From positions 1 to 64,000 of the forward strand of contig NZ_QDDR01000016.1 of assembly GCF_003075525.1 (NCBI RefSeq): a stretch of DNA of 64,000 nucleotides, given 5' to 3'. How positions within the stretch are numbered: the first letter of the stretch is position 1; each line of letters opens with the position of its first letter. A program made the translations under genes and the position numbers. The notes beneath the pieces were generated by a model. It did not search any database. It was given only the letters and a program-made list of their open reading frames with translations, and had not been told where the DNA came from. This document shows positions 38,513-64,000 of this stretch, piece after piece. The DNA is from Pararhodobacter aggregans. Its GTDB lineage: Bacteria; Pseudomonadota; Alphaproteobacteria; Rhodobacterales; Rhodobacteraceae.

Positions 38513-39601
38513 TCAGGCGGCGGGGTCGCTCGCGTCCCGCACCCAGCCCGCGATCAGCGCCGCCACCGCGTCGCTGTTCTTTTCCAGCATCATCGCATGG
38601 CCGTTGCCGCGAAGCCCGTGTTCTTCCAGCCGGACATGATCGCAGCCGACGCCCGCCTGTCGCAGGAAATCGACGGTGCCGTGGTTGTCATGCGCCATCC
38701 ACGAAGCCTCGGCGGTGAAGATCGTCACTGGCACCTGTGCGAGGCGCGGCAATTGGCGGGCGGGTTCGGCCTGCACCAGACATTCCAGATCGCCGGCCCG
38801 GGCCGGGGCGCGGTTCTCGCGGGCGATGTCCTCGGGGCTGGCGGCGGGCGGCTCGAAGCTCAGCGGCGCGGCGGTCAGGCCCCAACTGAGCGTCCCCGTC
38901 GGGCGCGAGGCGAAGGGCGGGCCGACCGGCTCGACCGCCAGCAGCGCCCGCACCAGATCGGGGCGCGCATCCGCCGCCAGCCAGCCGGTCGGCGCCCCGG
39001 CGCTGTGGGTCAGCACCACGGCAGGGCCGATCCGTTCCAGGAGTTCCACCAGCCCCCGCTGGCAATCGAGGTGATGGCGGCCAAGGTCGGTCATCATCGG
39101 GCCGGAGCCCGCCAGAAAGGCGTCGAAACCCGGATCGCCCGGCCGCCCGCCGTCCGGCCATTGGTCATGGCGCGCGGCGCTCGGGTATTGCTCGGGCCAG
39201 CCCTCGGGCCGGGTAAAGGCGCGTTCGATGAAAGCGGGCGGCGGCAGCGGGCCCATGGCGCCCATCGCGTCCGGGTGATGCGGCGAGCGACCGTGGCCGG
39301 GGCGGTCCACCACATAGACCGGATGGCCGGCCCGGACGAAATGCTGCACCCAGCCCGGGCGGCCATCGGCGGTGCCCAGCATGTCGAGCCCCTGCCCGCC
39401 CCCGCCATGCACCAAGACCAGCGGCGTGCGGTAGCCCAGCGCGGCCGGGATCCAGTATTCCACATACATCTGCCCGCGGATCGCCGGGCCGCCCGCCGTC
39501 TCGACCCATTCGATCCCGGTCCAGAAGAAGCCCTGCGCGGCAAGCGTCAGGGGCGCGGGGCTGGCGGCGTGGAGGTCCTCGGGACGGAAGGAACGGGTCA
39601 T
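38513..39601 (-). CDS. Alpha/beta hydrolase
   Basis: The protein has 362 residues. The oxyanion region is VLVHGGGGQGLDMLG, the nucleophile motif is LTHSAGAPTGWL with Ser, and GNGHAMMLEKNSD carries the His near the end. The fold matches the large esterase/hydrolase group with an inserted lid (DRPGHGRSPHHPDAMGAMGP). No signal peptide is visible. It is the last gene of the minus-strand aromatic block (66 bases after the ring-cleaving dioxygenase) and may hydrolyse an ester substrate or a ring-fission product. Confidence 0.75.
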   Translation of the reverse strand: MTRSFRPEDLHAASPAPLTLAAQGFFWTGIEWVETAGGPAIRGQMYVEYWIPAALGYRTPLVLVHGGGGQGLDMLGTADGRPGWVQHFVRAGHPVYVVDRPGHGRSPHHPDAMGAMGPLPPPAFIERAFTRPEGWPEQYPSAARHDQWPDGGRPGDPGFDAFLAGSGPMMTDLGRHHLDCQRGLVELLERIGPAVVLTHSAGAPTGWLAADARPDLVRALLAVEPVGPPFASRPTGTLSWGLTAAPLSFEPPAASPEDIARENRAPARAGDLECLVQAEPARQLPRLAQVPVTIFTAEASWMAHDNHGTVDFLRQAGVGCDHVRLEEHGLRGNGHAMMLEKNSDAVAALIAGWVRDASDPAA

Positions 39602-39630
39602 CGGCAACCTGCGGCGCAAGAAAGGGGGAG

Positions 39631-39660
39631 GCCCGCCGCCCCCAGGGAGAGGCGGCGGGC
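39631..39660 (-). promoter_or_regulatory. Hairpin between dioxygenase and hydrolase genes
   Basis: GCCCGCCGCC (39631-39640) and GGCGGCGGGC (39651-39660) form a perfect 10-bp stem with a 10-base loop and no T-run. It may attenuate expression of the terminal hydrolase. Confidence 0.5.
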
Positions 39661-39667
39661 GGACACG

Positions 39668-40675
39668 TCAGGCCCGGGCGGGCTTTGACGCGGGCTCGGA
39701 GATCAGCGTGCCATCGGCGCGCCGCGGGTTGGTGATCGGCGTCAACTCGCGTTCCAGCTTGGCGCGGAGCGGCTCGACGCGTTTGGACAAGGCCAGCCGC
39801 TCGCCCAGTTCTTCCTTGGTCTGATCGACCAGAAAGCCCGGACCGGCGCTGGTCAGCTCGATGATCGCCGGGGTGTTGGTATAGCAGGAATCAAAGACGT
39901 GATGGTCATAGACCGGCGTGGTCCTCAGCGGCCCTTCGTTCGAGAAATCGCGCCAACCCTGCAGGTTCTCCTCGGCATCGAGCGCCAGGTGATGCCAGAC
40001 GCCGACCGCGATCTCCTGAAACGGCAGCGGGTTCGGCGCGGGGTTGGAATACCAGCGCGACGAGCGCGTGGTGCCCTGCAACTCGTACCGGCCGAGGCCG
40101 TCGTTGCGGGTGAAGCCCATGTGCTCGGCATAGGGCGCGATCTCGTCCAGCGAGGCGTTGGTGCGGATCCCCTCGATCCCGGTGACGCGGAAATCGGCCG
40201 GGATATCCGAGGCCGGGAAAGCCTGCGGCGGATCGCTCGCATCGGTGGCGATCAGCTCGACATTGTGGCCCTCGGGGTCCTGGAACACCAGCCGGCGGGG
40301 CTGGGTCGGGTCCAGACGGATCAGCTCGCTATAGACTTGCTCCTGCGTCAGGCGGTCCATCCAGTAATCAAGCGCGGCATGGCTTTTCACCCGCAGGATA
40401 GCCGCGTGATGGTTGCCCTTGCCGGGCAGTCCGCGGGGGAATTCCTTGAATTCCAGAAAGGTGACGACGCTGCCGACATCGCCGTCGGTATTGCCGAAAT
40501 AGGTGTGGTAGCGGAAGGTCGTCTCGAAGTTCAGCGTCTTCTTGACGAAGCGCAACCCCATGATCCGGCTCCAGAAATCCACATTCGCAGTAACGTCGGC
40601 GGTGATGCCGGTGATGTGGTGATTGCCGTTGAGAGGCCGGTTCGGCCGCGTCGGCCTTGCGTCAGTCTTGGGCAT
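39668..40675 (-). CDS. PcpA/LinE-like ring-cleaving dioxygenase (VOC superfamily)
   Basis: The protein has 335 residues with paired glyoxalase/VOC modules. Likely Fe(II) ligands are His20 (GNHHITGITAD), His229 (VWHHLALDAEE) and Glu273 (PAIIELTSAGPGF), the His/His/Glu pattern of (chloro)hydroquinone 1,2-dioxygenases. The product of hydroquinone cleavage, 4-hydroxymuconic semialdehyde, is a fit for the aldehyde dehydrogenase encoded upstream in the same block. A second member is at 51995. The ring substrate is inferred, not shown. Confidence 0.8.
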   Translation of the reverse strand: MPKTDARPTRPNRPLNGNHHITGITADVTANVDFWSRIMGLRFVKKTLNFETTFRYHTYFGNTDGDVGSVVTFLEFKEFPRGLPGKGNHHAAILRVKSHAALDYWMDRLTQEQVYSELIRLDPTQPRRLVFQDPEGHNVELIATDASDPPQAFPASDIPADFRVTGIEGIRTNASLDEIAPYAEHMGFTRNDGLGRYELQGTTRSSRWYSNPAPNPLPFQEIAVGVWHHLALDAEENLQGWRDFSNEGPLRTTPVYDHHVFDSCYTNTPAIIELTSAGPGFLVDQTKEELGERLALSKRVEPLRAKLERELTPITNPRRADGTLISEPASKPARA

Positions 40676-40744
40676 CAGGGTTCCTCCCGCTGTGCTGTGT
40701 TGATCGACTCGGGCGCCGCGGCCGCTGGTGGCCGCGGCCGAAGC

Positions 40745-41125
40745 TCAGGCCTTGGGTTGGGCGTCCAGCACCCGCCGGGCGATGCGGAAGCATTCGACCC
40801 CGCAGGGCACGCCGCCGTAGATCGCCACGACATGGATCGCGGCGCGCACCTGCTCGCGGCTGACGCCGTTGTTGAGCGCACCCTTGAGATGGGTTTCCCA
40901 TTCCGACCAGCGGCCCAGAACCCCCAGCAGCGCCAGGTTCATCAGGCTGCGGGTCTTGGGGTCGATGGCCTCGTCCCCCCAGCCGAAGCCCCAGCACCAG
41001 GCTGTCATCGCCTCCTGGAACGGGCGCGAGAAATCGTCGGCCGCGTCGAGATTGCGCTGGACATACTCGGCCCCCAGCGTGGCCTTGCGGGCGGCGAGAC
41101 CGTCGGCGAAGTGATCGGATGACAT
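40745..41125 (-). CDS. Carboxymuconolactone decarboxylase-family protein
   Basis: The protein has 126 residues, of the all-helical CMD/AhpD-like fold (KTRSLMNLALLGVLGRWSEWE; LKGALNNGVSREQVRAAIHVVAIYGGVPCGVECFRIA). The family includes PcaC but also alkylhydroperoxidase-like and unknown members. The single Cys residues (Trp-Cys-Trp near 43 and CGVEC near 110) do not form a clear AhpD CxxC. It sits between the dehydrogenase and dioxygenase genes, so a role on a muconolactone or other ring-fission product is plausible. Confidence 0.8.
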   Translation of the reverse strand: MSSDHFADGLAARKATLGAEYVQRNLDAADDFSRPFQEAMTAWCWGFGWGDEAIDPKTRSLMNLALLGVLGRWSEWETHLKGALNNGVSREQVRAAIHVVAIYGGVPCGVECFRIARRVLDAQPKA

Positions 41126-41183
41126 GGCCTGTGTTCCTTCCTGGCTGTCTGTCTGTAGGGTCGCGGCCCCGCTTGGGGCGGGA

Positions 41184-42650
41184 TCAGCGAATGATGAACG
41201 GGTTGGCGACGGAGGTTTCGGTGGCGATCCAGACGGATTTCACCTGCAGGTATTCCTTGATCGACTCCATCCCGCTCTCGCGGCCGATGCCGCTGCGTTT
41301 GTAGCCGCCAAACGGCGAGGTGTAGCTGACCGCGCGGTAGGTATTGACCCAGACGGTGCCCGCCTTCAGCCGTTCGGACAGCCTGAGCGCCCGGCCCATG
41401 TCGCGGGTCCAGACCCCGGCGGCCAGGCCGAAGGGGATGTCATTGGCGATGGCGATGGCCTCGGCCTCGTCCTCGAAGGGAATGACGGCCAGCACCGGGC
41501 CGAAGACCTCTTCCTGGGCGATGCGCATGGCGTTGTGGACGCCGGTGAAGATGGTCGGCTGCACGAATTGCCCGCCCGGCGCCCCCTCGACCGGCCCGCC
41601 ACCCAGCACGCAACGCGCGCCTTCGTTGCGGGCAATCTCGATATATTCCAGCACCTTGCGGTATTGCGGCGGGGTGGTGACGGGGCCGACATGGGTCTCC
41701 GCCGCCATCGGATCGCCGATCCTGGCCGCGCCCGCCACCTCGACCAGCCGTTCGACGAAACGGTCGTGGATCGAGCGTTGCAACAGCAGGCGCGAGCCGG
41801 CGATGCAGGTCTGCCCGGTGGCGGCGAAGATGCCCGAGATCGCGCCCATCACCGCCGCTTCCAGATCGGCATCCTCGAAGACGATGTTGGGCGACTTGCC
41901 CCCCAGTTCCAGCGAGACCGGCTTGATCTGCCGCGCCGCCGCCTCATAGACCCGGGCGCCGCCGATGTCGGAGCCGGTGAAGGCGATTTTCGCCACCTCC
42001 GGGTGATTGACCAGCGGCGCGCCCGCTTCCGCGCCGAAGCCGGTCACGGTATTGACCACGCCTGCCGGGAACCCGGCCTTGGCAAAGAGCGGCATGAATT
42101 CCAGCGTCGAGGCCGAGGTGAATTCCGAGGGCTTTATAACCGCCGCATTCCCCGCCGCCAGCGCCGCGCCAAGCTTCCACGCGAGCAGCAAGAGCGGCGA
42201 GTTCCAGGGGGTTATCATCCCCACCACGCCCAACGGCTCGTAGCGGGTGAAATTGAAGACACCGGCCTTGTCCGAGGGGATCACATGCCCCTCGATCTTG
42301 TCGGCCAGCCCGCCGAAATAGCGATACCATTCCGCGATATAGCCGGTCTGAGCGCGCATCTCGGCATAGAGCTTGCCGTTGTCGCGGACCTCGATCTCGG
42401 CCAGATGGTCGGCGTGGCCCTCGATCAGATCGGCCAGCCGCACCAGCGCCTTGCCGCGCGCCGTCGCGGTCAGCGCCGCCCAGTCGGCCTGCCCCGCAAC
42501 CGCCGCCTCGACCGCGCGCGCCACATCGGCGGCATCGCCCCGGGCGATCTCGGCCCAGGGTTTGCCGGTATAGGGGTTCGCGGTTTCGAACCAGCGGCCG
42601 GCGATGGGGTCGACATACTCGCCGGCGATGAAATGTCCGTAGCGCTGCAT
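41184..42650 (-). CDS. Aldehyde dehydrogenase (probable hydroxymuconic semialdehyde dehydrogenase)
   Basis: The protein has 488 residues and is NAD(P)-dependent. Catalytic Cys282 (GQTCIAGSR) and Glu248 (LELGGKSPN) are present, with Asn150 in ITPWNSPL and FTGSDIGG as the nucleotide loop. In the same block as a PcpA/LinE-like dioxygenase it could oxidise 4-hydroxymuconic semialdehyde to maleylacetate. AAGGAG precedes the ATG at 42650, overlapping the end of the MBL gene, which suggests translational coupling. Confidence 0.88.
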   Translation of the reverse strand: MQRYGHFIAGEYVDPIAGRWFETANPYTGKPWAEIARGDAADVARAVEAAVAGQADWAALTATARGKALVRLADLIEGHADHLAEIEVRDNGKLYAEMRAQTGYIAEWYRYFGGLADKIEGHVIPSDKAGVFNFTRYEPLGVVGMITPWNSPLLLLAWKLGAALAAGNAAVIKPSEFTSASTLEFMPLFAKAGFPAGVVNTVTGFGAEAGAPLVNHPEVAKIAFTGSDIGGARVYEAAARQIKPVSLELGGKSPNIVFEDADLEAAVMGAISGIFAATGQTCIAGSRLLLQRSIHDRFVERLVEVAGAARIGDPMAAETHVGPVTTPPQYRKVLEYIEIARNEGARCVLGGGPVEGAPGGQFVQPTIFTGVHNAMRIAQEEVFGPVLAVIPFEDEAEAIAIANDIPFGLAAGVWTRDMGRALRLSERLKAGTVWVNTYRAVSYTSPFGGYKRSGIGRESGMESIKEYLQVKSVWIATETSVANPFIIR

Positions 42651-42654
42651 CGGC

Positions 42655-43455
42655 TCACTCCTTCGGATCGGCGTCGAGCCGGGCGGCAATGCCCTCGAGC
42701 CCGGGCGCGGCGGCGGGATAGCGGCCGAGGACCAGCGGATCATGGCCCGGGATCACCCCCCGGCGGTCGCTGGCCAGCGCATAGAGCCGGTCATAGCCTT
42801 CCAGCGTATCCGCGAGGCTGTGCAGGATCGGGAAGGCGCGCCCGGTCTCCATGTTGGAATAGAAATGGCTCGCGTCCGAGGCCAACACCATCCAGCCGCG
42901 CCGGGTCATCACCCGCACCACCTGCAAGCCCTTGGAATGCCCGCCGATCTTGTGAAGCGTCAGGCCCGGGGCCAGCTGGCTGTCGCCGTCATGAAAGGTC
43001 ACGCGGCCGTCGAAGACCTTGCCCACCATGTCGGTGACATCCTCCTTCTCGAAGGGATGGCGCAGCGCGCCGTGGCACATGCAGCGCCCGGTGCAATATT
43101 CCATCTCGGCGTCTTGCAGGTGGTAGCGCGCGCGCGGGAACAGCGCGTGATTACCGCAATGGTCGAAATGCATATGCGAGAGGATCACATCCTCGACCGT
43201 GTCGGGGTTGATGCCCAGCGCGCTCAGACCCTCGCCCGGGCAGCGCAGATGCGCGCGGCCGCGCTTCTCGCCCGTGGCCTTGTCGTAACCCGTGTCCAGG
43301 ACGAAGGTCCGCCCGTTACCCCGGATCGCCCAGACGAAGTAGTCGAGCGGCATCGGCCCGTCGTGCGGATCCCCGCCCAGATGGTTCCCGGCCGCCGTCG
43401 CCGCGGCGTTATGGCCGTATTTGACGGCGAAGACCTCGTAGGGTTCGATCGACAT
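42655..43455 (-). CDS. Metallo-beta-lactamase-fold hydrolase
   Basis: The protein has 266 residues. The di-metal motif SHMHFDHCGN gives His94, His96, Asp98 and His99. Further ligands lie in IGGHSKGLQVV, LASDASHFY and VIPGHDP. It belongs to the N-acyl-homoserine lactonase-like branch, but its place in an aromatic operon suggests hydrolysis of a lactone or ester intermediate rather than quorum quenching. It is 9 bases from the cupin gene and 4 bases from the dehydrogenase gene. Confidence 0.85.
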   Translation of the reverse strand: MSIEPYEVFAVKYGHNAAATAAGNHLGGDPHDGPMPLDYFVWAIRGNGRTFVLDTGYDKATGEKRGRAHLRCPGEGLSALGINPDTVEDVILSHMHFDHCGNHALFPRARYHLQDAEMEYCTGRCMCHGALRHPFEKEDVTDMVGKVFDGRVTFHDGDSQLAPGLTLHKIGGHSKGLQVVRVMTRRGWMVLASDASHFYSNMETGRAFPILHSLADTLEGYDRLYALASDRRGVIPGHDPLVLGRYPAAAPGLEGIAARLDADPKE

Positions 43456-43464
43456 GGCCCGCCC

Positions 43465-43881
43465 TCAGCCCTGCGGCGCCTGGGCGGCGGCGTAATCGGC
43501 GTCGCTGACCAGTTCCAGCCAATCGGCGACCTGGCCGTCCTCGCTTTCCTGCATCGAGATATGGGTCATGGCGACGGTCGAGGTGGCGCCGTGCCAATGC
43601 TTGACGCCGGGCGGGATCCAGATGCTGTCACCGGGGTTGATGACCTCGGCCGCCGCACCCCAGCGCTGGATCAGCCCCTGCCCCGCGGTGACGAACAGCG
43701 CCTGCCCCATCGGATGCGTGTGCCAAGCGGTGCGGGCGCCGGGCTCGAAGGTCACGACATTCGAGGACAAAAGCCCCGGCTTCGGCATCTTGACGATCTG
43801 GTCCTGCCAGACGGCGCCGCTGAAGCGGCTGGCCGGCGCCCGGAACGAGGCCCGGGTCCCGCTGCGCGAGATCTCGATCAT
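43465..43881 (-). CDS. Small cupin-domain protein
   Basis: The protein has 138 residues and one beta-barrel cupin. Metal-binding motif 1 is RTAWHTHPMGQALFV (His, His, then Gln) and motif 2 is GDSIWIPPGVKHWHG. Similar cupins occur beside gamma-carboxymuconolactone decarboxylases and CMD proteins. The enzymatic role is unknown. GGGAGGG precedes the ATG. It lies between the dehydrogenase and MBL genes in one transcription unit. Confidence 0.82.
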   Translation of the reverse strand: MIEISRSGTRASFRAPASRFSGAVWQDQIVKMPKPGLLSSNVVTFEPGARTAWHTHPMGQALFVTAGQGLIQRWGAAAEVINPGDSIWIPPGVKHWHGATSTVAMTHISMQESEDGQVADWLELVSDADYAAAQAPQG

Positions 43882-43959
43882 GGTATCCCTCCCTGTCGCC
43901 CCGCCGGAGCGGGGTCCTCCCGGGCGGAAGGCGCCGCGCGCCGCCCGCCGGGGCAATGC

Positions 43960-44838
43960 TCAACCGCGCGCCTGAACCCCGGCGCGCTCTTCCGTCAGGG
44001 TGACGATGCGGGTGAAATCCGACCCCGCCCCCAGTTTCTCCAGCGCCTCGTCCCAGGCGGCCAGCACCGAGCGGCAGCCCGGCAGGTCGAGGCCCAGCTC
44101 CTCGGCCGTGCGCACGAAAAGCGCCACGTCCTTCTGCATCAGCCCGGTGTGGAAGCCGTAGTCGAAGGCCCCGTTGAGGATGGATTGCGGGAATTTCTGC
44201 ATCGTCGCGGTGTTGCGGCCGCTGCCGGCGTTAATCACCTCGACCACGGTGCGGGCGTCGATCCCGGCCTTCACGCCCATGACCACCGCCTCGGACGAGA
44301 GCGTCATCGCCGCCGCCGACAGGCAATTGTTCACCAGCTTCATGGTTTGGGCGAGCCCGGGCTCGGCACCGATATAGAAGGGCTTGCCCAGCGCCTTCAG
44401 CATGTCCTGCAGATCGTCGAAATCCTCGCGCGGGCCCGAGAACATCACCGCCAGCGTCCCGGCCACGGCACCGCCGACCCCGCCGCTGACCGGGCTGTCC
44501 AGCCAGCGCACACCCCGCGCGCCCAGCGCAGCCGAGAGTTCGCGCGACTTCTGCGGCCCGGTGGTCGACAGGTCGATCACCCGGCGCAACGCCTTGCCCT
44601 GCAACTGGCGGCCGACCGCCTCGACAATCGGCGGCGTCGGCAGCGACAGGAACACCGTATCGACCGCATCGCTCAGAGCCTCGGCACTGGCGACCGACCG
44701 CGCGCCGGCTTCGACCAGGGATGCCACCGCCGCCGCATTGGCGTCGTGGATCACCAGATCGAAGCCCGCCGCCATCAGCCGCTCCGCCATCGGACGGCCC
44801 ATGTTCCCAACCCCGATGAAGCCGATCGTTCTGCCCAT
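43960..44838 (-). CDS. 3-hydroxyisobutyrate dehydrogenase-family oxidoreductase
   Basis: The protein has 292 residues. The Rossmann motif is IGFIGVGNMGRPMAERL (5-21). The substrate-binding signature is DSPVSGGVGGA (about 115-125), the catalytic Lys is in GLAQTMKLVNN, and NxxxD-type residues follow. It reduces or oxidises a beta-hydroxyacid, possibly a ring-fission product. It is the promoter-proximal gene of the seven-gene minus-strand block, with an operator-like motif 21 bases upstream. TGGAGG lies before the ATG. Confidence 0.88.
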   Translation of the reverse strand: MGRTIGFIGVGNMGRPMAERLMAAGFDLVIHDANAAAVASLVEAGARSVASAEALSDAVDTVFLSLPTPPIVEAVGRQLQGKALRRVIDLSTTGPQKSRELSAALGARGVRWLDSPVSGGVGGAVAGTLAVMFSGPREDFDDLQDMLKALGKPFYIGAEPGLAQTMKLVNNCLSAAAMTLSSEAVVMGVKAGIDARTVVEVINAGSGRNTATMQKFPQSILNGAFDYGFHTGLMQKDVALFVRTAEELGLDLPGCRSVLAAWDEALEKLGAGSDFTRIVTLTEERAGVQARG

Positions 44839-44858
44839 TCCCGTTCCTCCAGAATCTC

Positions 44859-44877
44859 TATCATCATACTATAATAC
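44859..44877. promoter_or_regulatory. Shared catabolic operator, copy A
   Basis: On the minus strand it reads GTATTATAGTATGATGATA. That matches copy C (50718-50736) at 17 of 19 positions, and copy B (47333-47351) over the first 12 bases with one difference. It stands 21 bases before the dehydrogenase start in an AT-rich island. Confidence 0.7.
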
Positions 44878-44972
44878 AATATTCCCATCCGCAACGCCTG
44901 ACCGCCAAGTTCTTTTCAAAGCGGTGTTTTTTTGCTGATCGGCAACGGGGATTGCGGCCTCCGGCATGGGAA

Positions 44973-45003
44973 AGGGGGCGACCGACATGGTCGATCGCCC
45001 CCT
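44973..45003 (-). terminator. Terminator of the TRAP binding-protein gene
   Basis: AGGGGGCGA (44973-44981) pairs with TCGCCCCCT (44995-45003). Additional GACC/GGTC pairing occurs in the loop. In the minus direction the stem is followed by TTTC, 31 bases past the binding-protein stop. Confidence 0.75.
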
Positions 45004-45033
45004 GCCATTGGCCCAGGATGCGGGCGGCGGCGG

Positions 45034-46080
45034 TCAGTTCGCCGCGGCCTCGATCTCGGCCAGGACGGCGTTGTATTCGGCAACGAAGGCGTCATAGACC
45101 GCCTGCCCGTTGTCGGTCTCGGCCAGCCAGGTCTCGGTGATCGGCGCCAGACGCTCCAGCCAGAGCGCGCGTTCTTCATCGGGCAGCGAGTATTGGTGCA
45201 GCGTACCCGCTTCGATCAGCTGGTCGTTGAACTGCGCGCGCAGCACGTCCTGTTCACGGCCCAGGTGCCGCGAGAGCCGCTCGCCGCTCCAGGCGTCGAT
45301 CGAGGCGCGGGCCTCGGGTTCGAGATTGGCGTAGCTGTCGCGGTTCATGATGAAGGCGATGACCGACAGGCCGAAGGACACGTTGTCGACCTCGTATTCC
45401 AGCATCTCGTTGAAGCGGAAGACCACGAGCGAGTTGCCGTTGCCCACCGCCCCGTCGACGACGCCGCGGCTGATCGCCTGATAGGCCTCGCTGAACGAGA
45501 TCGAGACGGGCGAGGCGCCCAGAGCGGTCAGTGCCGCCGAGGTCTCGCGCCCGGTCGAGCGGACCCGCATCCCGGCCAGATCGTCGAGCGATTGCACGGG
45601 CGTGCGCGAATAGAGCGACAGCGCCATCGGCGTATAGAGGCCCAGCACATGCACCTGCTCGAAGGTGTCGTCCAGCATCCCCTGTTCATAGAGCCGCCAG
45701 AGCGCGGCCGAGGCGGCCTCGGCGTTCGACGCCAGACCCGGCAGCGAGGCGACGGCGGTGCGCTGGAACGGCAGGCCGGTGGCATAGGTAATCATGTTGC
45801 CGATATCGGCCACACCCGCCGTCACCCGGTCCCACATGTTGTCGGCCGCGGCGAAGGGCGGCGGATAGGGCGCGACCTCCAGCGTGCCGTTCGAGCCCTC
45901 GTTCAGGGCGTCGATCCAGGGCTGATAGCAGCAGCGCATGATGATGCTGTCGGGCGCCTGCGCCGTGGCGAAGCGCAGGTGCTGCTGCGCGGGCGCCGCC
46001 ATCGGCAGCAGCGACAGGGCCAGCGCCGCGGTCAGGCTGCGGGCGAACCGGCGGCTCGCGGTCTTTGTCTTGGTCGTCAT
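45034..46080 (-). CDS. TRAP transporter substrate-binding protein (DctP family)
   Basis: The protein has 348 residues and is periplasmic. The signal peptide ends at LPMAAPA before QQHLRFATAQAP. The family features are GVADIGNMITYATGLPF, a conserved Arg in LAGMRVRSTGRE that binds the substrate carboxylate, and SEAYQAISRGVVDGAVGNG. The ligand is presumably an organic or aromatic acid. Its membrane partner is the fused QM permease at 47483, with a monooxygenase gene lying between them. GGGAGGAG precedes the ATG. Confidence 0.88.
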   Translation of the reverse strand: MTTKTKTASRRFARSLTAALALSLLPMAAPAQQHLRFATAQAPDSIIMRCCYQPWIDALNEGSNGTLEVAPYPPPFAAADNMWDRVTAGVADIGNMITYATGLPFQRTAVASLPGLASNAEAASAALWRLYEQGMLDDTFEQVHVLGLYTPMALSLYSRTPVQSLDDLAGMRVRSTGRETSAALTALGASPVSISFSEAYQAISRGVVDGAVGNGNSLVVFRFNEMLEYEVDNVSFGLSVIAFIMNRDSYANLEPEARASIDAWSGERLSRHLGREQDVLRAQFNDQLIEAGTLHQYSLPDEERALWLERLAPITETWLAETDNGQAVYDAFVAEYNAVLAEIEAAAN

Positions 46081-46147
46081 GGTCTCTCCTCCCAGAGTGA
46101 ATTGGCCGACCGGCGCGCGCCGGATCGGATCTTGGCCCCGCCCGCCC

Positions 46148-47320
46148 CTAAAGGCTGGACTGCATCGAGCGGGCAAACGGGACCTGCGCCCGAACGGCGT
46201 CGGGATCGGTCGCGAGGCGGCGCACGGCCTGCAACTGGCTGTCCAGCAGGCTCCCTTCATGCGCGTGAAAGATCATCTGCTTGTTCTGGACCGCGCGGGG
46301 CGAGGCGATCTCCAGGAAGATCCGGCGCCTGTCGTCGGAATAGCGGTCCAGAAGGTCGGGCGAGGCGCCCTCGTTGACGATGGCGTTGAGGATGTCGAGC
46401 AGGAAATAGAGGTCCAGCAGCCCCGAGGTCAGGCCCAGCCCCCCGGTCGGGTTGGTGATATGCGCCGCGTCGCCCGCCAGAATCACCCGCCCCACCCGCA
46501 TGGTGTCGGCGCAGCGCTGGTGCATCCGGTAGGGGGAATATTGCACCAGCTCGTAATCCTCGACCCCCGGGGCATAGGCCCGGTAGAAGGCGTCGATCCG
46601 CTCGGTCACCGTCTCCAATGGTTGGGTCGCATCCTCCATGAAGGTGACGCGCCACAGGTCGGACGTGTCGAGCTTGGCGATGATCGCGCCATGCACGTCG
46701 TCCATCACCATATTGGCCCGCGCATAGCCGAAGGATTCGAACGGCAGCCGGACATTGGTGGCGATGAACCGCTCGGGATGGGTGATGCCGAAGAAATTGA
46801 GCTTCAGCGCCGTCTCGCGCACCGTGCTGCCGCCGCCGTCGGCGCCGATCAGCCAGTCGAACCGCTCGACCGTCTCGCCCGCCGGCCCCGACAGTCGCGC
46901 GGTGACGCCGCTGGTATCCTGCGTCAGATCGGTGAGACGGGTCGCGAAACGGACCTCGGCGCTGGCGAAGCGCTCAAGGTGACGGCAGGCGATGCGGGCC
47001 AGATCGTTCTGGCCCAGATGCAGGTTGAAGGCATAGGGCGCGACCTCGGCCAGAGGCGCCAGCGACCAATGGATGCGTTCGTTGGTGCGAAACACGAAAT
47101 GGCAGTAATCCTGCTTGGCGAAGCCCGTCTCCAGCGCCTCGTCCAGGATGCCCAGCCGCTTCAGCCCCTCCAGCACGTACCAGTGATAGACCGCGGCGCG
47201 GGGGGAATCGACGATATCGGGCTCGGCCTCGACCAGCGTGACCCTGAGGCCGCGCTGCGCAAGGCCCAGCGCGGTCAGGAACCCGACGGGCCCGCCTCCG
47301 ACGACCAGGACGTGCTGCAT
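46148..47320 (-). CDS. FAD-dependent aromatic monooxygenase 1
   Basis: The protein has 390 residues and is a class A flavoprotein hydroxylase. The dinucleotide motif is VVGGGPVGFLTALGL, the DG motif is IGADGGGSTVRE, and the GD motif is LAGDAAHITNPTGGLGL. NAD(P)H is the expected donor. Its paralogue at 49510 shares about two thirds of residues by eye. It has its own operator-like motif and lies upstream of the TRAP binding protein. It would ring-hydroxylate a phenolic compound; the substrate is unknown. Confidence 0.87.
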   Translation of the reverse strand: MQHVLVVGGGPVGFLTALGLAQRGLRVTLVEAEPDIVDSPRAAVYHWYVLEGLKRLGILDEALETGFAKQDYCHFVFRTNERIHWSLAPLAEVAPYAFNLHLGQNDLARIACRHLERFASAEVRFATRLTDLTQDTSGVTARLSGPAGETVERFDWLIGADGGGSTVRETALKLNFFGITHPERFIATNVRLPFESFGYARANMVMDDVHGAIIAKLDTSDLWRVTFMEDATQPLETVTERIDAFYRAYAPGVEDYELVQYSPYRMHQRCADTMRVGRVILAGDAAHITNPTGGLGLTSGLLDLYFLLDILNAIVNEGASPDLLDRYSDDRRRIFLEIASPRAVQNKQMIFHAHEGSLLDSQLQAVRRLATDPDAVRAQVPFARSMQSSL

Positions 47321-47332
47321 CTCGACCCTCCG

Positions 47333-47351
47333 GTTAGTGATACAATAATAC
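47333..47351. promoter_or_regulatory. Shared catabolic operator, copy B
   Basis: On the minus strand it reads GTATTATTGTATCACTAAC. The first 12 bases fit GTAT-N-AT-N-GTAT exactly, and the remainder diverges from copies A and C. It is 13 bases before the monooxygenase 1 start, close to the ribosome site. Confidence 0.6.
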
Positions 47352-47458
47352 GATATGCTAGATAGCGGGATGCCGTGCTGTCAATCGCGCATCGCGCCCG
47401 AAAGCCACAATAAAACGGCCTGATTTCAGCGCCTTGCGCAGGGCGAACACCGCCCTGC

Positions 47459-47482
47459 CCCGGGCCCGGCGAATCGCCCGGG
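47459..47482 (-). terminator. Hairpin after the TRAP permease gene
   Basis: CCCGGGC (47459-47465) and GCCCGGG (47476-47482) flank a 10-base loop directly after the permease stop. It probably ends that transcript, consistent with a new promoter for monooxygenase 1. Confidence 0.5.
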
Positions 47483-49462
47483 TCAGAGGAACCCGGGCAG
47501 CCAGAGGATCAGCATCGGGAAGCCGATCAGCAGCGCCAGCTTGATAAGGTCGGCCACCAGAAAGGGCATGACCCCGGCATAGAGCTGGCTGAGCGGCAGT
47601 TTCGGCGCCACCGATTTCAGCATGAACAGGTTCAGGCCGAAGGGCGGGGTCATCACGCCGATCTCGACCACCACGACCATGATCACCGCCCACCAGATCG
47701 GATCGTAGCCATAGGCGCCGACGATCCCGGCGGTCAGGCTGGCGGTAATCATCATGATCGCCATGCTGTCGAGGATGAAACCCAGCAGGATGTAGCCCGC
47801 GCACAACATGACCACGATCACCCAGCCCGGCGCGTTCAGCCCGGCGATGGCGTCGGTCATCGCCGTCGACAGCCCGGTTGCCGAGAAGAGGAAGGTGGTA
47901 ATCAGCGCGCCGATGATCAGGAAATAGATCATCGAGGTCGAGCGCGTGGTCTCGGCCATGACCTTCCAGAACCCGCCGCCCTTCAGACCGCCCCTGAGCA
48001 CCAGGATGGCGAAGGCGATGACCGCGCCCAGCCCGGCGGCCTCGGTCGCGGTGCAGATGCCGAAGAAGATCCCGCCAAAGACCAGCAGGAACATCACCAC
48101 GACCGGCAGCGAGCGCAGGCCGCTGGTCACGATCTCGCGCCCGTTCCAGGCCTCGCCCCTGGGCGCGGCCGAGGGGACCAGCGTCACGGTCAGGCCGATG
48201 GCGATCATGTAGAAAATGACCGTCATCAGGGCCGGGATCAGCATGGCGATATAGATCGCGCCGATGGATTGCTCGACCAGCAGCGCATAGACCACGGCCA
48301 CGGTCGAGGGCGGCAGCAACTGGCCCAGCGTCCCGCCCGAGGTGATGGCGCCCGCCGCCAGTTTCGGCGAATAGCCGCGGCGCTCCATCTCGGGATAGGC
48401 GACCGAACCGATGGTGGCGACGGTGGCGACAGAGGAGCCGGTCAGCGCCCCGAAGCCCGCCGAGCCGCCGATCGTGGCCAGCGCCAGCCCGCCACGGAAC
48501 GGCGCGAAGATGGCCTGGGCGAAGGCGTAGATGTCGCGCGACATGCCGCTCTGCACGGCGAAACCGCCCATCATCAGGAAGAACGGCACCACCGCCAGAT
48601 CGAGGCTGATGAGCAGGCCCTTGGTCTCGGCCCCGGCGATGTTGATGGCCTGCATCGGGCCGAAGATGCCGAGGATCCCCAGCGTGGCGCAGGCGGTGAG
48701 CGCCGCGGCCAGCGGCACATAGAGCAGCATCAGCACCCAGAGGAGCCCGACCAGCGCCGCCGCCGCCGTCAGCATGTTCATCAGGAAGAAGGTCTGCAGC
48801 GACAGGAACAGCCAGACCGCCCCCGCCGACAGCCCCAGCCCCAGCGCGAAGATGACGATCACGCCGACATACCAGCGGCGGGTCAGATCGGCCGACGCCC
48901 GCAGCGCCACCATCAGCTGCGCCGGGATGCAGAGGACGAAGAAAGCGGTGATGACCGAATACCACGGCCAGAGCCGCCATTGCATGATCGTGGTGACCTT
49001 GCCCTGATTGAAGGCCGAAAGCGTCTGCCGCCAGATGGCATAGGCGATCAGGGCCACGGTCACGGTGAACAGCACCGCCCCGAAGGCGCGAAGCCAGGCG
49101 ATGGTCCTTGCCTTCAGCATCAGGCCCAGCAGGTCGATCTCCAGCGTCGCCCGGGCGGAAAGGCCCGCCGCCAGCACCGCGGCGATGGCGGTCGGAAAGA
49201 CGGTGTGGAAGATCTCGTTTGAGCCGGGGATCGGCGCGTTGAAGATCCAGCGCAGGATCACCACGTCGAAAGTGGTGACCAGCGCCACCCCCAGCATGGT
49301 CAGGGCACCGGCGGTGGCGACGACCCGCGCCAGCCGCCCGACGCCGTCATCCATCGCCGCCAGCGCGTCGCGGACCCGGGACGGGGGCAGCGGCTCCGGA
49401 GCCGGTGCCTGCAGCGCCGGGTCGGCGGCGATCTCTCCCGTATCGGTCTCGGTCCGGGTCAT
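47483..49462 (-). CDS. Fused TRAP transporter permease (DctQ-DctM)
   Basis: The protein has 659 residues with about 16 hydrophobic segments. Residues 1-190 form a DctQ-like small subunit (VATAGALTMLGVALVTTFDV; GSNEIFHTVFPTAIAAVLAAG). From about 230 on is a DctM-like large subunit (LLISLDLAVVPFFLMMGGF; GSSVATVATIGSVAYPEM; GTLGQLLPPSTVAVVYALL; VIEIGVMTPPFGLNLF-type end). Most TRAP systems encode these as separate genes; natural fusions are known. It starts 47 bases after monooxygenase 2 and works with the binding protein at 45034. Confidence 0.9.
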   Translation of the reverse strand: MTRTETDTGEIAADPALQAPAPEPLPPSRVRDALAAMDDGVGRLARVVATAGALTMLGVALVTTFDVVILRWIFNAPIPGSNEIFHTVFPTAIAAVLAAGLSARATLEIDLLGLMLKARTIAWLRAFGAVLFTVTVALIAYAIWRQTLSAFNQGKVTTIMQWRLWPWYSVITAFFVLCIPAQLMVALRASADLTRRWYVGVIVIFALGLGLSAGAVWLFLSLQTFFLMNMLTAAAALVGLLWVLMLLYVPLAAALTACATLGILGIFGPMQAINIAGAETKGLLISLDLAVVPFFLMMGGFAVQSGMSRDIYAFAQAIFAPFRGGLALATIGGSAGFGALTGSSVATVATIGSVAYPEMERRGYSPKLAAGAITSGGTLGQLLPPSTVAVVYALLVEQSIGAIYIAMLIPALMTVIFYMIAIGLTVTLVPSAAPRGEAWNGREIVTSGLRSLPVVVMFLLVFGGIFFGICTATEAAGLGAVIAFAILVLRGGLKGGGFWKVMAETTRSTSMIYFLIIGALITTFLFSATGLSTAMTDAIAGLNAPGWVIVVMLCAGYILLGFILDSMAIMMITASLTAGIVGAYGYDPIWWAVIMVVVVEIGVMTPPFGLNLFMLKSVAPKLPLSQLYAGVMPFLVADLIKLALLIGFPMLILWLPGFL

Positions 49463-49509
49463 CGGGGGCCTCGCTGAAAGGAAGGAGGGAACACGGAGCC
49501 CGGGCGGGC

Positions 49510-50697
49510 TCAGAGCGTGGATTGCAGCTGCCGCGTGAAGGTCGCCTGCGCCAGAACCGCGTCGCGATCCGTCGCCAGCCGCCGGACCTGGGTCAGTTCG
49601 CGGTCGAACCACGCGCCCTGATAGGCGTGGAACACCCGCTGCTTGTTGCGGCTGGCCTGGGGCGAGGCGATCTCCAGGAAGATGCGCCGCCGCTCGTCCG
49701 AATAGCGGTCCAGCAGATCATGCGAGGCGCCCTCGTTGACGATGGCGTTCATGATCTGGGTCAGGAAATACGAATCGAAGAGACCCGAGGTGAGGCCCAG
49801 TCCGCCGGTGGGGTTGGTGATATGCGCGGCGTCGCCCGCCAGAATTACCCGCCCGACCCGCATGGTGTCGGCACAGCGCTGGTGCATCCGGTAGGGCGAG
49901 AATTGCACGAGCTCGTAATCCTCGCGCCCCAGCCCCGGCACATAGGCCTGATAGAAATGATGAATCCGGTCGCGGATCCCCTCGAGCGGCAGGCTCGCGT
50001 CCTCCATGAAGGTGACGCGCCACAGGTCATCGCGGTCGATCTTGGCGATGATCGCGCCATAGACATCGTCCATGATCATGTTGGCCCGGGCGTAGCCGTA
50101 GGATTCGAAGGGCAGTTTCACGTTGGTGGCGACGAATCGCTCGGGCCAGGTGATGCCGAAGAAATTCATCTTCAGGATCTTCTCGCGCACCGTGCTGCCG
50201 CCGCCATCGGCCGCGATCACCCAGTCGAAGCGTTCCTCGGTCGTGCCCTCGGGGCCGTGCAGCGTGGCGGTGACCCCATGGTCGTCCTGCGCCAGGCCGG
50301 TGATCTTCGTGCCGAAGCGAATCGACGCCAGCGGGTTGGTTTGCAGCCGGCGGCAGGCGATCTCGGCCAGGTCGTTCTGGCCCAGATGCAGGTTGTAGGG
50401 ATGCTTGGTGACGGAGTCGAGCGCGTCGAGCGACCAGTGGATCCGCTCGTCGGTGCGGTGGACGACGAAGCTGTAATCCTGCTTGGTGAAGCCGCGGTCC
50501 ATGGCCTCTTGCAGGATGCCCAGATCCTCCAGCCCCTGCAGGACCGACCAGTGATAGACCATCGCGCGGGGCGAATTGACGATCTGCGGCTCGGCCTCGA
50601 CCAGAGTCACCTTGATCCCGTAGCGGCCGGCGAGCCCCAGGGCAGTGATGAATCCCGCCGGGCCGCCGCCGGCGACCAGCACATGTTGAGTTCCCAC
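49510..50697 (-). CDS. FAD-dependent aromatic monooxygenase 2
   Basis: The protein has 395 residues and is the paralogue of the 46148 enzyme with the same layout: GGGPAGFITALGL near residue 9, IAADGGGSTVRE, and LAGDAAHITNPTGGLGLTS. Differences cluster at 30-100 (the substrate side) and at the C-terminus. The shared DNA around the GD motif is near-identical, suggesting tandem duplication with the TRAP permease between the copies. It is promoter-proximal to the permease gene, with an operator-like motif 21 bases upstream. Confidence 0.87.
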   Translation of the reverse strand: MGTQHVLVAGGGPAGFITALGLAGRYGIKVTLVEAEPQIVNSPRAMVYHWSVLQGLEDLGILQEAMDRGFTKQDYSFVVHRTDERIHWSLDALDSVTKHPYNLHLGQNDLAEIACRRLQTNPLASIRFGTKITGLAQDDHGVTATLHGPEGTTEERFDWVIAADGGGSTVREKILKMNFFGITWPERFVATNVKLPFESYGYARANMIMDDVYGAIIAKIDRDDLWRVTFMEDASLPLEGIRDRIHHFYQAYVPGLGREDYELVQFSPYRMHQRCADTMRVGRVILAGDAAHITNPTGGLGLTSGLFDSYFLTQIMNAIVNEGASHDLLDRYSDERRRIFLEIASPQASRNKQRVFHAYQGAWFDRELTQVRRLATDRDAVLAQATFTRQLQSTL

Positions 50698-50717
50698 GGG
50701 CCCCTCCCCAGGCGTGA

Positions 50718-50736
50718 GTATGATTGTATGATGATA
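50718..50736. promoter_or_regulatory. Shared catabolic operator, copy C
   Basis: It reads GTATGATTGTATGATGATA on the plus strand and continues into C to make an imperfect 20-bp dyad (GTAT at one end, ATAC at the other). It lies 21 bases before the monooxygenase 2 start, the same distance as copy A from its gene but in opposite orientation. Confidence 0.7.
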
Positions 50737-50878
50737 CTACTAAGCGCTTCGGCGCGATGTCAACCGACCTGATGCGCCCGCCCCGCCTATCCGGGGTCCA
50801 CCCTGAGGTCGGGGCGAGATCGGCGGCAGTATCGAAACAGCCCGGGCGGGAAGTCAAATCAGCAGTCTCGGGGTTAAC

Positions 50879-50893
50879 ATAGCCCGACGCTAT
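50879..50893 (+). promoter_or_regulatory. LysR-type box 1 upstream of intradiol dioxygenase
   Basis: ATAGC-CCGAC-GCTAT is a 15-bp dyad with T-N11-A geometry, preceded by AAC as in box 2. It is 182 bases before the dioxygenase start. Confidence 0.6.
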
Positions 50894-50981: not shown

Positions 50982-50996
50982 ATAGCAAACCGCTAT
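50982..50996 (+). promoter_or_regulatory. LysR-type box 2 upstream of intradiol dioxygenase
   Basis: ATAGC-AAACC-GCTAT shares AACATAGC and GCTATA with box 1, 103 bases downstream of it. It continues as ATTGCACGG, a string also found beside the dyad at 63880-63904. Confidence 0.65.
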
Positions 50997-61584: not shown

Positions 61585-62532
61585 ATGAAACTCAGCGCCG
61601 AACACCTCGAAATCCTGGCCGTCATCGTCGATAAGGGGGGCCTGACCGAAGGCTCCGAGGCTTTGGGCAAGTCGCAGCCCTCGGTCTCGCGCAGCATGGC
61701 CCTGCTGGAACAGCGGGTCGGCATGCCCTTGTTCGAGCCGGGACGCCGCCCGCTCAGGCCCACGGAACTGGGTCTGAGCCTGGCCAAGGCGGGGGCACGG
61801 ATCCGGGCCGCCGGGATCGAGGCCGGGCAGATGGTCCGCCGCTTCCAGCAGGGGCAGGCCGGGCGGCTCAGGGTCGGCGGCACGCCCGTGTTCATGGATG
61901 GCGTCGTCTCGGGCATCATCGCCGATTTCCAGTCGCGCAACGCCGATGTGCAGATCGAACAGGTCTATGGCTATCTCGACGCGCTGGCGACCAGCCTGCG
62001 CAACGGCACGCTGGATCTGGCGATCCTGCCGCTGCACCCGACGCAGGTCCCGCGCGAAATGACCTTCACGCCGCTGCTGGCCGGGCACAACGTCATCGCC
62101 TGCCGGGCCGGGCATCCGCTGACCCGGCGCAAGGGCCTGACCATGGCCGATATCGAGGATTTCAGCTGGATCGCGCCGCCCAGCGACAGCCCCCTTTACC
62201 GCGACCTGCAACGCGCGCTGCGCTCCATCGGGCGCGATGATTTTCAGGTCAGCTTCTCGGGCGGGACGCTGTCGTCGATCCTGGCCGTGCTTTCGGCCTC
62301 GGACGCGCTGACGGTCCTGCCCTATTCGGTGGCCTTCCTCGCCGGGCGGACGACGCCGCTGGAGATCCTGCCGGTGCGGATCGAACACCCCGACCGGCAG
62401 CTTGGCATCCTCACCGCCGCCGAGGGGCGCGAGGCGCGGACGCTGAAGGCCTTCGCGGGCTTTGTCGGGGACGAGCTGCACCGGCTGCAGAACCGCATGG
62501 ATCACGAGCGGCAGGTCCGCCGCCGGGGCTGA
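61585..62532 (+). CDS. LysR-family transcriptional regulator
   Basis: The protein has 315 residues. The N-terminal HTH is GGLTEGSEALGKSQPSVSRS followed by LLEQRVGMPLFEPGRRPLRPTELG. The effector domain begins RLRVGGTPVFMDGVVSG. It diverges from the hydroxylase gene and is the only regulator wholly inside the catabolic island, so it is the best candidate for controlling the aromatic genes. Its inducer would be a pathway intermediate. Confidence 0.9.
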   Translation: MKLSAEHLEILAVIVDKGGLTEGSEALGKSQPSVSRSMALLEQRVGMPLFEPGRRPLRPTELGLSLAKAGARIRAAGIEAGQMVRRFQQGQAGRLRVGGTPVFMDGVVSGIIADFQSRNADVQIEQVYGYLDALATSLRNGTLDLAILPLHPTQVPREMTFTPLLAGHNVIACRAGHPLTRRKGLTMADIEDFSWIAPPSDSPLYRDLQRALRSIGRDDFQVSFSGGTLSSILAVLSASDALTVLPYSVAFLAGRTTPLEILPVRIEHPDRQLGILTAAEGREARTLKAFAGFVGDELHRLQNRMDHERQVRRRG

Positions 62533-63938: not shown

Positions 63939-64000
63939 TCAGGACGCGTCGGGCGCGGGCTCTTCCAGACGGCCCAGAGCGGCGATGGCGGCGTTGCGGA
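63939..64000 (-). CDS. Partial gene at the window edge (C-terminus only)
   Basis: A minus-strand frame enters from beyond 64000 and ends at TGA (63939-63941). The visible 19 residues are RNAAIAALGRLEEPAPDAS. Composition and position upstream of the operator suggest a real gene, perhaps a regulator, but nothing identifies it. Confidence 0.4.
   Translation of the reverse strand, partial: RNAAIAALGRLEEPAPDAS

Follow-up and report, generated by a model that had tools for sequence, protein, structure and literature searches.

Near-identical AT-rich repeats stand in front of several catabolic transcription units in the 64,000-base window (the whole stretch of DNA that was analysed), which raises the question of what protein would read them, with what effect and over which genes. 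The preliminary description had placed three copies of GTAT-N-AT-N-GTAT upstream of the dehydrogenase operon, monooxygenase 1 (MO1) and monooxygenase 2 (MO2), and all three were confirmed there as matches to the 12-mer GTATNATNGTAT at 44866-44877 (minus strand), 47340-47351 (minus) and 50718-50729 (plus). Computation located the sites, showed them to be rare in the genome, linked them to relatives of one regulator elsewhere and placed them over promoter-like sequence. Read together, these results suggest that the repeats are operators of a single FCD-type GntR repressor, GntR64, encoded across the right window edge; we put the probability of this reading at about 0.85. Coordinates marked C16 refer to the same contig and continue the window numbering past 64,000; RHODO2 (G016) is a MAG, a near relative of the present genome.

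44856..44879, minus strand: site A, octamers TTGTATTA (44872-44879) and TAGTATGA (44864-44871), then TGATAGAG; upstream of the HIBDH operon; conserved in RHODO2.
47338..47353, minus strand: site B, octamers TCGTATTA (47346-47353) and TTGTATCA (47338-47345); upstream of MO1; the RHODO2 octamers differ by one base.
50716..50739, plus strand: site C, octamers GAGTATGA (50716-50723), TTGTATGA (50724-50731) and inverted TAGTATCA (50732-50739); upstream of MO2; in RHODO2 the first two octamers are identical and the third is different.
C16:72059-72066, right of the window: site D2, octamers AGTTATGA-TTGTATGA.
C16:72200-72207, right of the window: site D1, octamers TGGTAGTA-TTGTATGA.
C16:76347-76354, right of the window: site E, octamers TGATATGA-TTGTATGA.

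With up to one mismatch allowed, the window still held just the three GTATNATNGTAT matches (0.21 expected), a number reached in 0 of 100 window shuffles. The whole genome (5,079,942 bases) contains exactly three copies, all in the cluster, and none of the reversed-pattern control, in keeping with the earlier judgement that chance is unlikely. The 19-mer GTATKATWGTATGATNATA with up to three mismatches recovered A and C alone in the window (0.00 expected). These two agree at 17 of 19 bases, as had been described, and 20 bases separate the 19-mer from the start codon, which puts the start base 21 positions away, the distance originally given. Site B agrees with A and C over the 12-mer only and has 19 bases between its 12-mer and the start; the orientation of C relative to its gene is opposite to that of A and B. 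Across the genome, the same 19-mer search gave four matches: A, C, D1 (C16:72194-72212) and E (C16:76341-76359). RHODO2 gave four in the same arrangement, and the reversed-pattern controls gave none. The 9-mer TTGTATGAT occurs four times in each of the two genomes, always within the cluster, against 2 and 0 for the reversed control, and its search adds D2 (C16:72058-72066). Sites A, C, D1 and E were thus retrieved by patterns that include the upstream box, and C, D1, D2 and E also by the 9-mer without it. All 19-mer and 9-mer matches in the present genome are confined to 31.5 kb of C16 (44.8-76.4 kb). The single regulon proposed for 39-51 kb is upheld computationally as one regulon, and extends beyond 51 kb through D1, D2 and E. 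The expected conservation upstream of orthologues was found in RHODO2, which is too close (most cluster proteins 92-99% identical) for it to be counted as proof.

A check for many unrelated matches, proposed at the outset, came out clean in the present genome and poorly elsewhere, the bare 12-mer being present in 28 of 60 genomes searched (this one included), of which the others are often less GC-rich. Among 29 loci fetched around 12-mer copies of other genomes, L024 is the same cluster in RHODO2, and 27 gave no GntR64 relative, three of these matching ALDH or Liv ATPase genes weakly, at about 26-31% identity. The 12-mer was therefore rejected as a stand-alone probe in other genomes. In the remaining locus (L016, genome G027), the 12-mer search by itself led to the match GTATGATGGTAT at 1501-1512, with the start of a GntR gene 363 bases away; the product of that gene is 40% identical to GntR64. 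The same string occurs near the GntR64 relative of L119 in G334.

As to the regulator, the preliminary description had seen none that was obvious inside the window and had suggested a FadR-type GntR or a distant LysR. GntR domains numbered 39 in the present genome and 32 in RHODO2. One, at C16:64401-64580 (minus strand), lies 400 bases past the window edge and belongs to a gene that is partly inside the window.

C16:63942-64673 plus stop (predicted start), minus strand: GntR64 gene, straddling the right window edge.
63939..64000, minus strand: 3' end of GntR64 in the window, with the codons of the last 19 residues and the stop at 63939-63998.

Of this gene, 612 bases lie beyond 64061 and the remainder at the window edge. 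Its neighbours on the same strand are LysR65 on one side and the intradiol-dioxygenase gene HQD2 on the other, and its product is 97% identical in RHODO2. Both the GntR winged helix (PF00392, 67.6 bits; cut-off 27) and the FCD domain (PF07729, 80.1 bits; cut-off 24.3) pass the Pfam cut-offs, which makes GntR64 an FCD-type GntR by domain test. None of the NCBIfam equivalogs reaches its cut-off for GntR64 (best TIGR03338, 112.8 versus 271.5 bits). The promoter region of GntR64 itself contains no such site, the best having two mismatches. The regulator is very probably this protein; the GntR half of the earlier suggestion was borne out computationally, and the LysR half found no support.

Relatives of GntR64, defined by sequence similarity only, were found in the family (6 of 295 genomes, E up to 1e-45) and in the class (11 of 385, E up to 1e-40), the present genome being included in both; a search with MO2 added those of Pseudooceanicola pacificus (L035) and R. 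fascians (L042). Near the gene's own start, taken as -260 to +10 of about codon 21, 9 of 18 relatives (two of the 18 share one genome) had TTGTATGAT at one mismatch or fewer, versus 1 of 26 other GntR genes; the other nine relatives had no site with at most one mismatch near the gene. The controls were 30 loci of 71 matches, minus two that were GntR64 itself and two without alignment, and the Fisher p value of 5e-4 is too small because they come from two close genomes, include orthologous pairs and are not independent. Across whole genomes, 15 of 48 ATTGTATGAY sites lay within 10 kb of a GntR64 relative's gene, versus 0.22 expected, in 16 other genomes (15 plus P. pacificus). The present genome and RHODO2, in each of which 4 of 4 sites lie within 14 kb, were left out of this count. 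Six of 19 genomes gave no support: G116, G121, G096 and G334 have sites, none of them near, and G587 and R. fascians are without the 10-mer, the latter having TTGTATGAC at 0.9 kb or more from its relative's gene.

In P. pacificus, GntR64 is preceded by a site at about 35 bases, DctP by one at 93 and HIBDH by a weak one, and two more are found at the gap between the P450 and MmgE/PrpD genes, one of which falls inside the P450 frame if the first start codon is used. The P450 there is 62% identical to the one here, and the MmgE/PrpD protein shares 37% identity with the first MmgE/PrpD here and 44% with the second; because of these last values the divergent pair is a match in kind rather than gene for gene. 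With gene starts estimated, exact half-sites precede the GntR64 relatives of L094, L096, L110, L111, L113 and L116, HIBDH in L093 and L118, DctP in L109, ALDH in L095, and CMD or MBL in L109, L111, L113 and L118. Thirteen MO2-bearing loci have no full-length GntR64 relative (L034, L036-L041, L043-L045 and L047-L049). Twelve of them also lack TTGTATGA, several of the stretches being short; L036 has one TTGTATGA and no GntR64 relative. A CMD, HIBDH or MBL gene is also contained in 16 of 18 neighbourhoods of relatives, a figure with no background control. Since GntR64 relatives and TTGTATGA also go together in genomes of other families, their association can help to annotate similar clusters.

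GntR64 would read the half-site TTGTATGA. Each of the six own sites is made of two abutting octamers, head-to-tail, with an 8-bp period. The upstream box matches TTGTATGA at a mean of 5.83 of 8 positions in these six, versus 3.7 in 20 sites picked by hand from relatives; an upstream octamer match of at least 5/8 occurred in 5 of 97 contexts, the own sites being included, and the strong box at -8 is limited to the six. The own sites are not GT-N3-AC palindromes, their right arm being degraded to TTGTATGAT. Among the 20 chosen sites of relatives, nine continue as TTGTATGACA and six as TTGTATGACAA, the usual GT-N3-AC palindrome, and L096 has perfect TTGTATGA arms flanking 3 bases. A single strict geometry for all relatives was not found in 20 neighbourhood stretches. 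Of 31 pairs there in total (control 16.4), the geometries that stood out were inverted 11, counted 7 times in 5 distinct pairs (control 0.6), direct at +8 or -8, counted 7 times, and inverted 8, counted 3 times.

The effect that binding would have was judged from predicted promoters. A scan of the region gave four promoter-like sites versus 0.8 expected.

50734..50763, minus strand: predicted MO2 promoter, TTGACA-N18-TAGTAT, 10/12 consensus; the -10 overlaps site C.
47355..47384, minus strand: predicted MO1 promoter, TTGACA-N18-TAGCAT, 10/12 consensus; the -10 ends just before site B.

Site E sits between TTGACA and TATCAC in an 18-base spacer, with identical hexamers in RHODO2; the promoter at A is weak by consensus (8/12), and those at D1 and D2 are poorly defined. 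With A, B and C at or next to predicted -10/+1 regions and E within the spacer of a predicted promoter, GntR64 bound at these four would block RNA polymerase, from which we infer repression. An alternative, in which GntR64 reads the same sites and activates, is improbable. It could draw on D2 and D1, which stand 112 bases before the P450 start codon and 162 before the divergent MmgE/PrpD start codon, where promoters are ill-defined; against it, A, B, C and E fall on or next to the predicted contacts of polymerase, positions at which activators are not usually bound. Moreover, Atu1419, an FCD member with sites on the -10 or between -10 and -35, represses (PMC7797058).

Less probable again is a different local regulator as the reader. 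LysR61 (61585-62532), LysR65 (C16:64744-65694) and a TetR gene beside E (C16:76384-77061) all lie inside the cluster, but the link between sites and GntR64 relatives holds in genomes of other families. In addition, a LysR61 relative (64%) occurs in L038 of Falsigemmobacter (12 kb of a 21.5-kb contig) alongside relatives of several targets, namely PheA (85%), HQD2 (76%) and DctQM (69%), and within the 12-kb stretch neither a GntR64 relative nor TTGTATGA was found. The box consensus of LysR-type regulators is a T-N11-A dyad, and the octamers are direct repeats instead. A LysR or TetR reader was rejected on these grounds. That the repeats are mere AT-rich -10 elements or chance, as the -10 hexamers adjoining B and C and the commonness of the 12-mer in AT-richer genomes might suggest, is very improbable and was dismissed, given three or four places in 5.08 Mb, all in one cluster of a genome with very many promoters, the reversal of C relative to its gene, the spacer position of E and the recurrence with GntR64 relatives in distant genomes.

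The genes that a GntR64 repressor would control in the window form three putative operons, drawn from ORFs and Pfam matches.

38513..44838, minus strand: putative operon behind A (extent predicted), HIBDH-like dehydrogenase, cupin, metallo-beta-lactamase fold, aldehyde dehydrogenase, CMD, VOC and alpha/beta hydrolase.
45034..47320, minus strand: putative operon behind B, flavin monooxygenase 1 (MO1) and TRAP DctP.
47483..50697, minus strand: putative operon behind C, flavin monooxygenase 2 (MO2) and fused TRAP DctQM.

To the right, a second DctP and DctQM follow the P450 behind D2 on its strand, and 76 bases separate E from a third monooxygenase downstream of it, which shares 64.5% identity with MO2. 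The predicted regulon would thus encode TRAP uptake and oxidation, by three flavin monooxygenases, a CYP199-like P450 and dehydrogenases. The best solved relatives of MO2 are HspB, a 6-hydroxy-3-succinoylpyridine 3-monooxygenase (7da9, E 1.6e-111), and PnpA (6ain), and those of the P450 are 2fr7 and the CYP199 group; these matches point to a para-substituted aromatic acid as the probable substrate. The effector releasing the GntR64 repressor would be an acid from this pathway. One predicted regulon with a named regulator ties together uncharacterised flavin monooxygenases, a CYP199-like P450, MmgE/PrpD proteins and two TRAP systems, and a common substrate therefore becomes testable.

The three related single-domain monooxygenases of the HspB/PnpA kind (window 46148-47320 and 49510-50697; C16:75086-76270) include two that adjoin TRAP genes. 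The second TRAP set, behind the P450 in the C16:69646-71946 region (L053:3580-7946), is 45% (DctP) and 53% (DctQM) identical to the first. Separately, palindromes ATAGC-N5-GCTAT occur at window 50879-50893 and 50982-50996, in the gap before a divergent intradiol dioxygenase gene (51075, plus strand). The genome has just three such places, two of them in this gap, and RHODO2 one (the second box; the first is altered). These boxes fit the LysR-type dyad, and a second regulator probably controls the dioxygenase side.

The FCD domain of GntR64 was aligned, together with 13 relatives (14 sequences), against 14 FCD paralogues, with columns numbered by GntR64. Lys154 and Tyr158 were present in 14/14 of the group, the third ligand position was without His in 14/14, and the last His was retained in 13/14. 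The paralogues had Asp or Asn at 154 in 10/14, His at 158 in 12/14 and the last His in 14/14; the paralogue pair L054/L055 has Glu and Tyr at columns 154/158. By alignment, GntR64 thus lacks the Asp/Asn and three-His metal-ligand set of metal-binding FCD proteins (VanR-like, LldR, TM0439), and three of the four ligands are apparently replaced in its group, the column correspondence being read from the alignment. This apparent loss gives a direct test of acid sensing without metal. We tentatively raise a further reading, which we consider doubtful: that the GntR64 clade consists of metal-free FCD repressors (Lys-x3-Tyr replacing Asp/Asn-x3-His) that bind an acid ligand without a metal ion, and that in this lineage the group's GT-N3-AC palindrome has given way to an 8-bp head-to-tail operator of the NanR-like form, on which stacked dimers would sit, a switch of symmetry within one group of related regulators.

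On sequence grounds, the predicted regulon is well supported as a conventional one, of a known kind, with two unusual details, the 8-bp direct-repeat operator and the missing metal ligands. In one open-licence literature collection, no published description of TTGTATGA as a GntR site was found, TTGTATGACAA appeared only in papers that seem unrelated, and nothing that seemed to fit was found for GntR with hydroxyquinol or with pathway terms. Structure 6z74, which we take to be Atu1419, is a weak match to GntR64 (E 3.8e-07). Atu1419 of Agrobacterium fabrum is an FCD-GntR of the VanR group that represses three genes of the hydroxycinnamic-acid pathway, and the parallel lies in this FCD-GntR type and in the placement of its sites at the -10 or in the spacer (PMC7797058), as predicted here. 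The difference is that Atu1419 has a palindrome, ATGTATACAT, and zinc ligands, Asn137, His141, His192 and His214 (PMC7797058), whereas GntR64 has octamer direct repeats and three of four ligands missing by alignment. GntR proteins are described as using palindromes, direct repeats and extra boxes, those of FadR-subfamily operators being weaker and 7-12 nt from the centre (PMC4494728, in part). Sites of the relatives such as TTGTATGACAA fit the GT-N3-AC of that subfamily (PMC4494728), whereas the own sites have the degraded right arm and a strong box 8 bp upstream. NanR of E. coli, a GntR regulator, has three dimers stacked on GGTATA repeats (PMC8012715, in part), the repeat unit being printed as TGGTATAW (PMC4494728, in part). 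Its three GGTATA units (PMC8012715) differ from TNGTATKA-TTGTATGA here, and the NanR NCBIfam model scores GntR64 at 56.3 of 260 bits, far under the cut-off; what the two share is direct repeats with a GTAT core in close succession (PMC8012715 and PMC4494728, in part).
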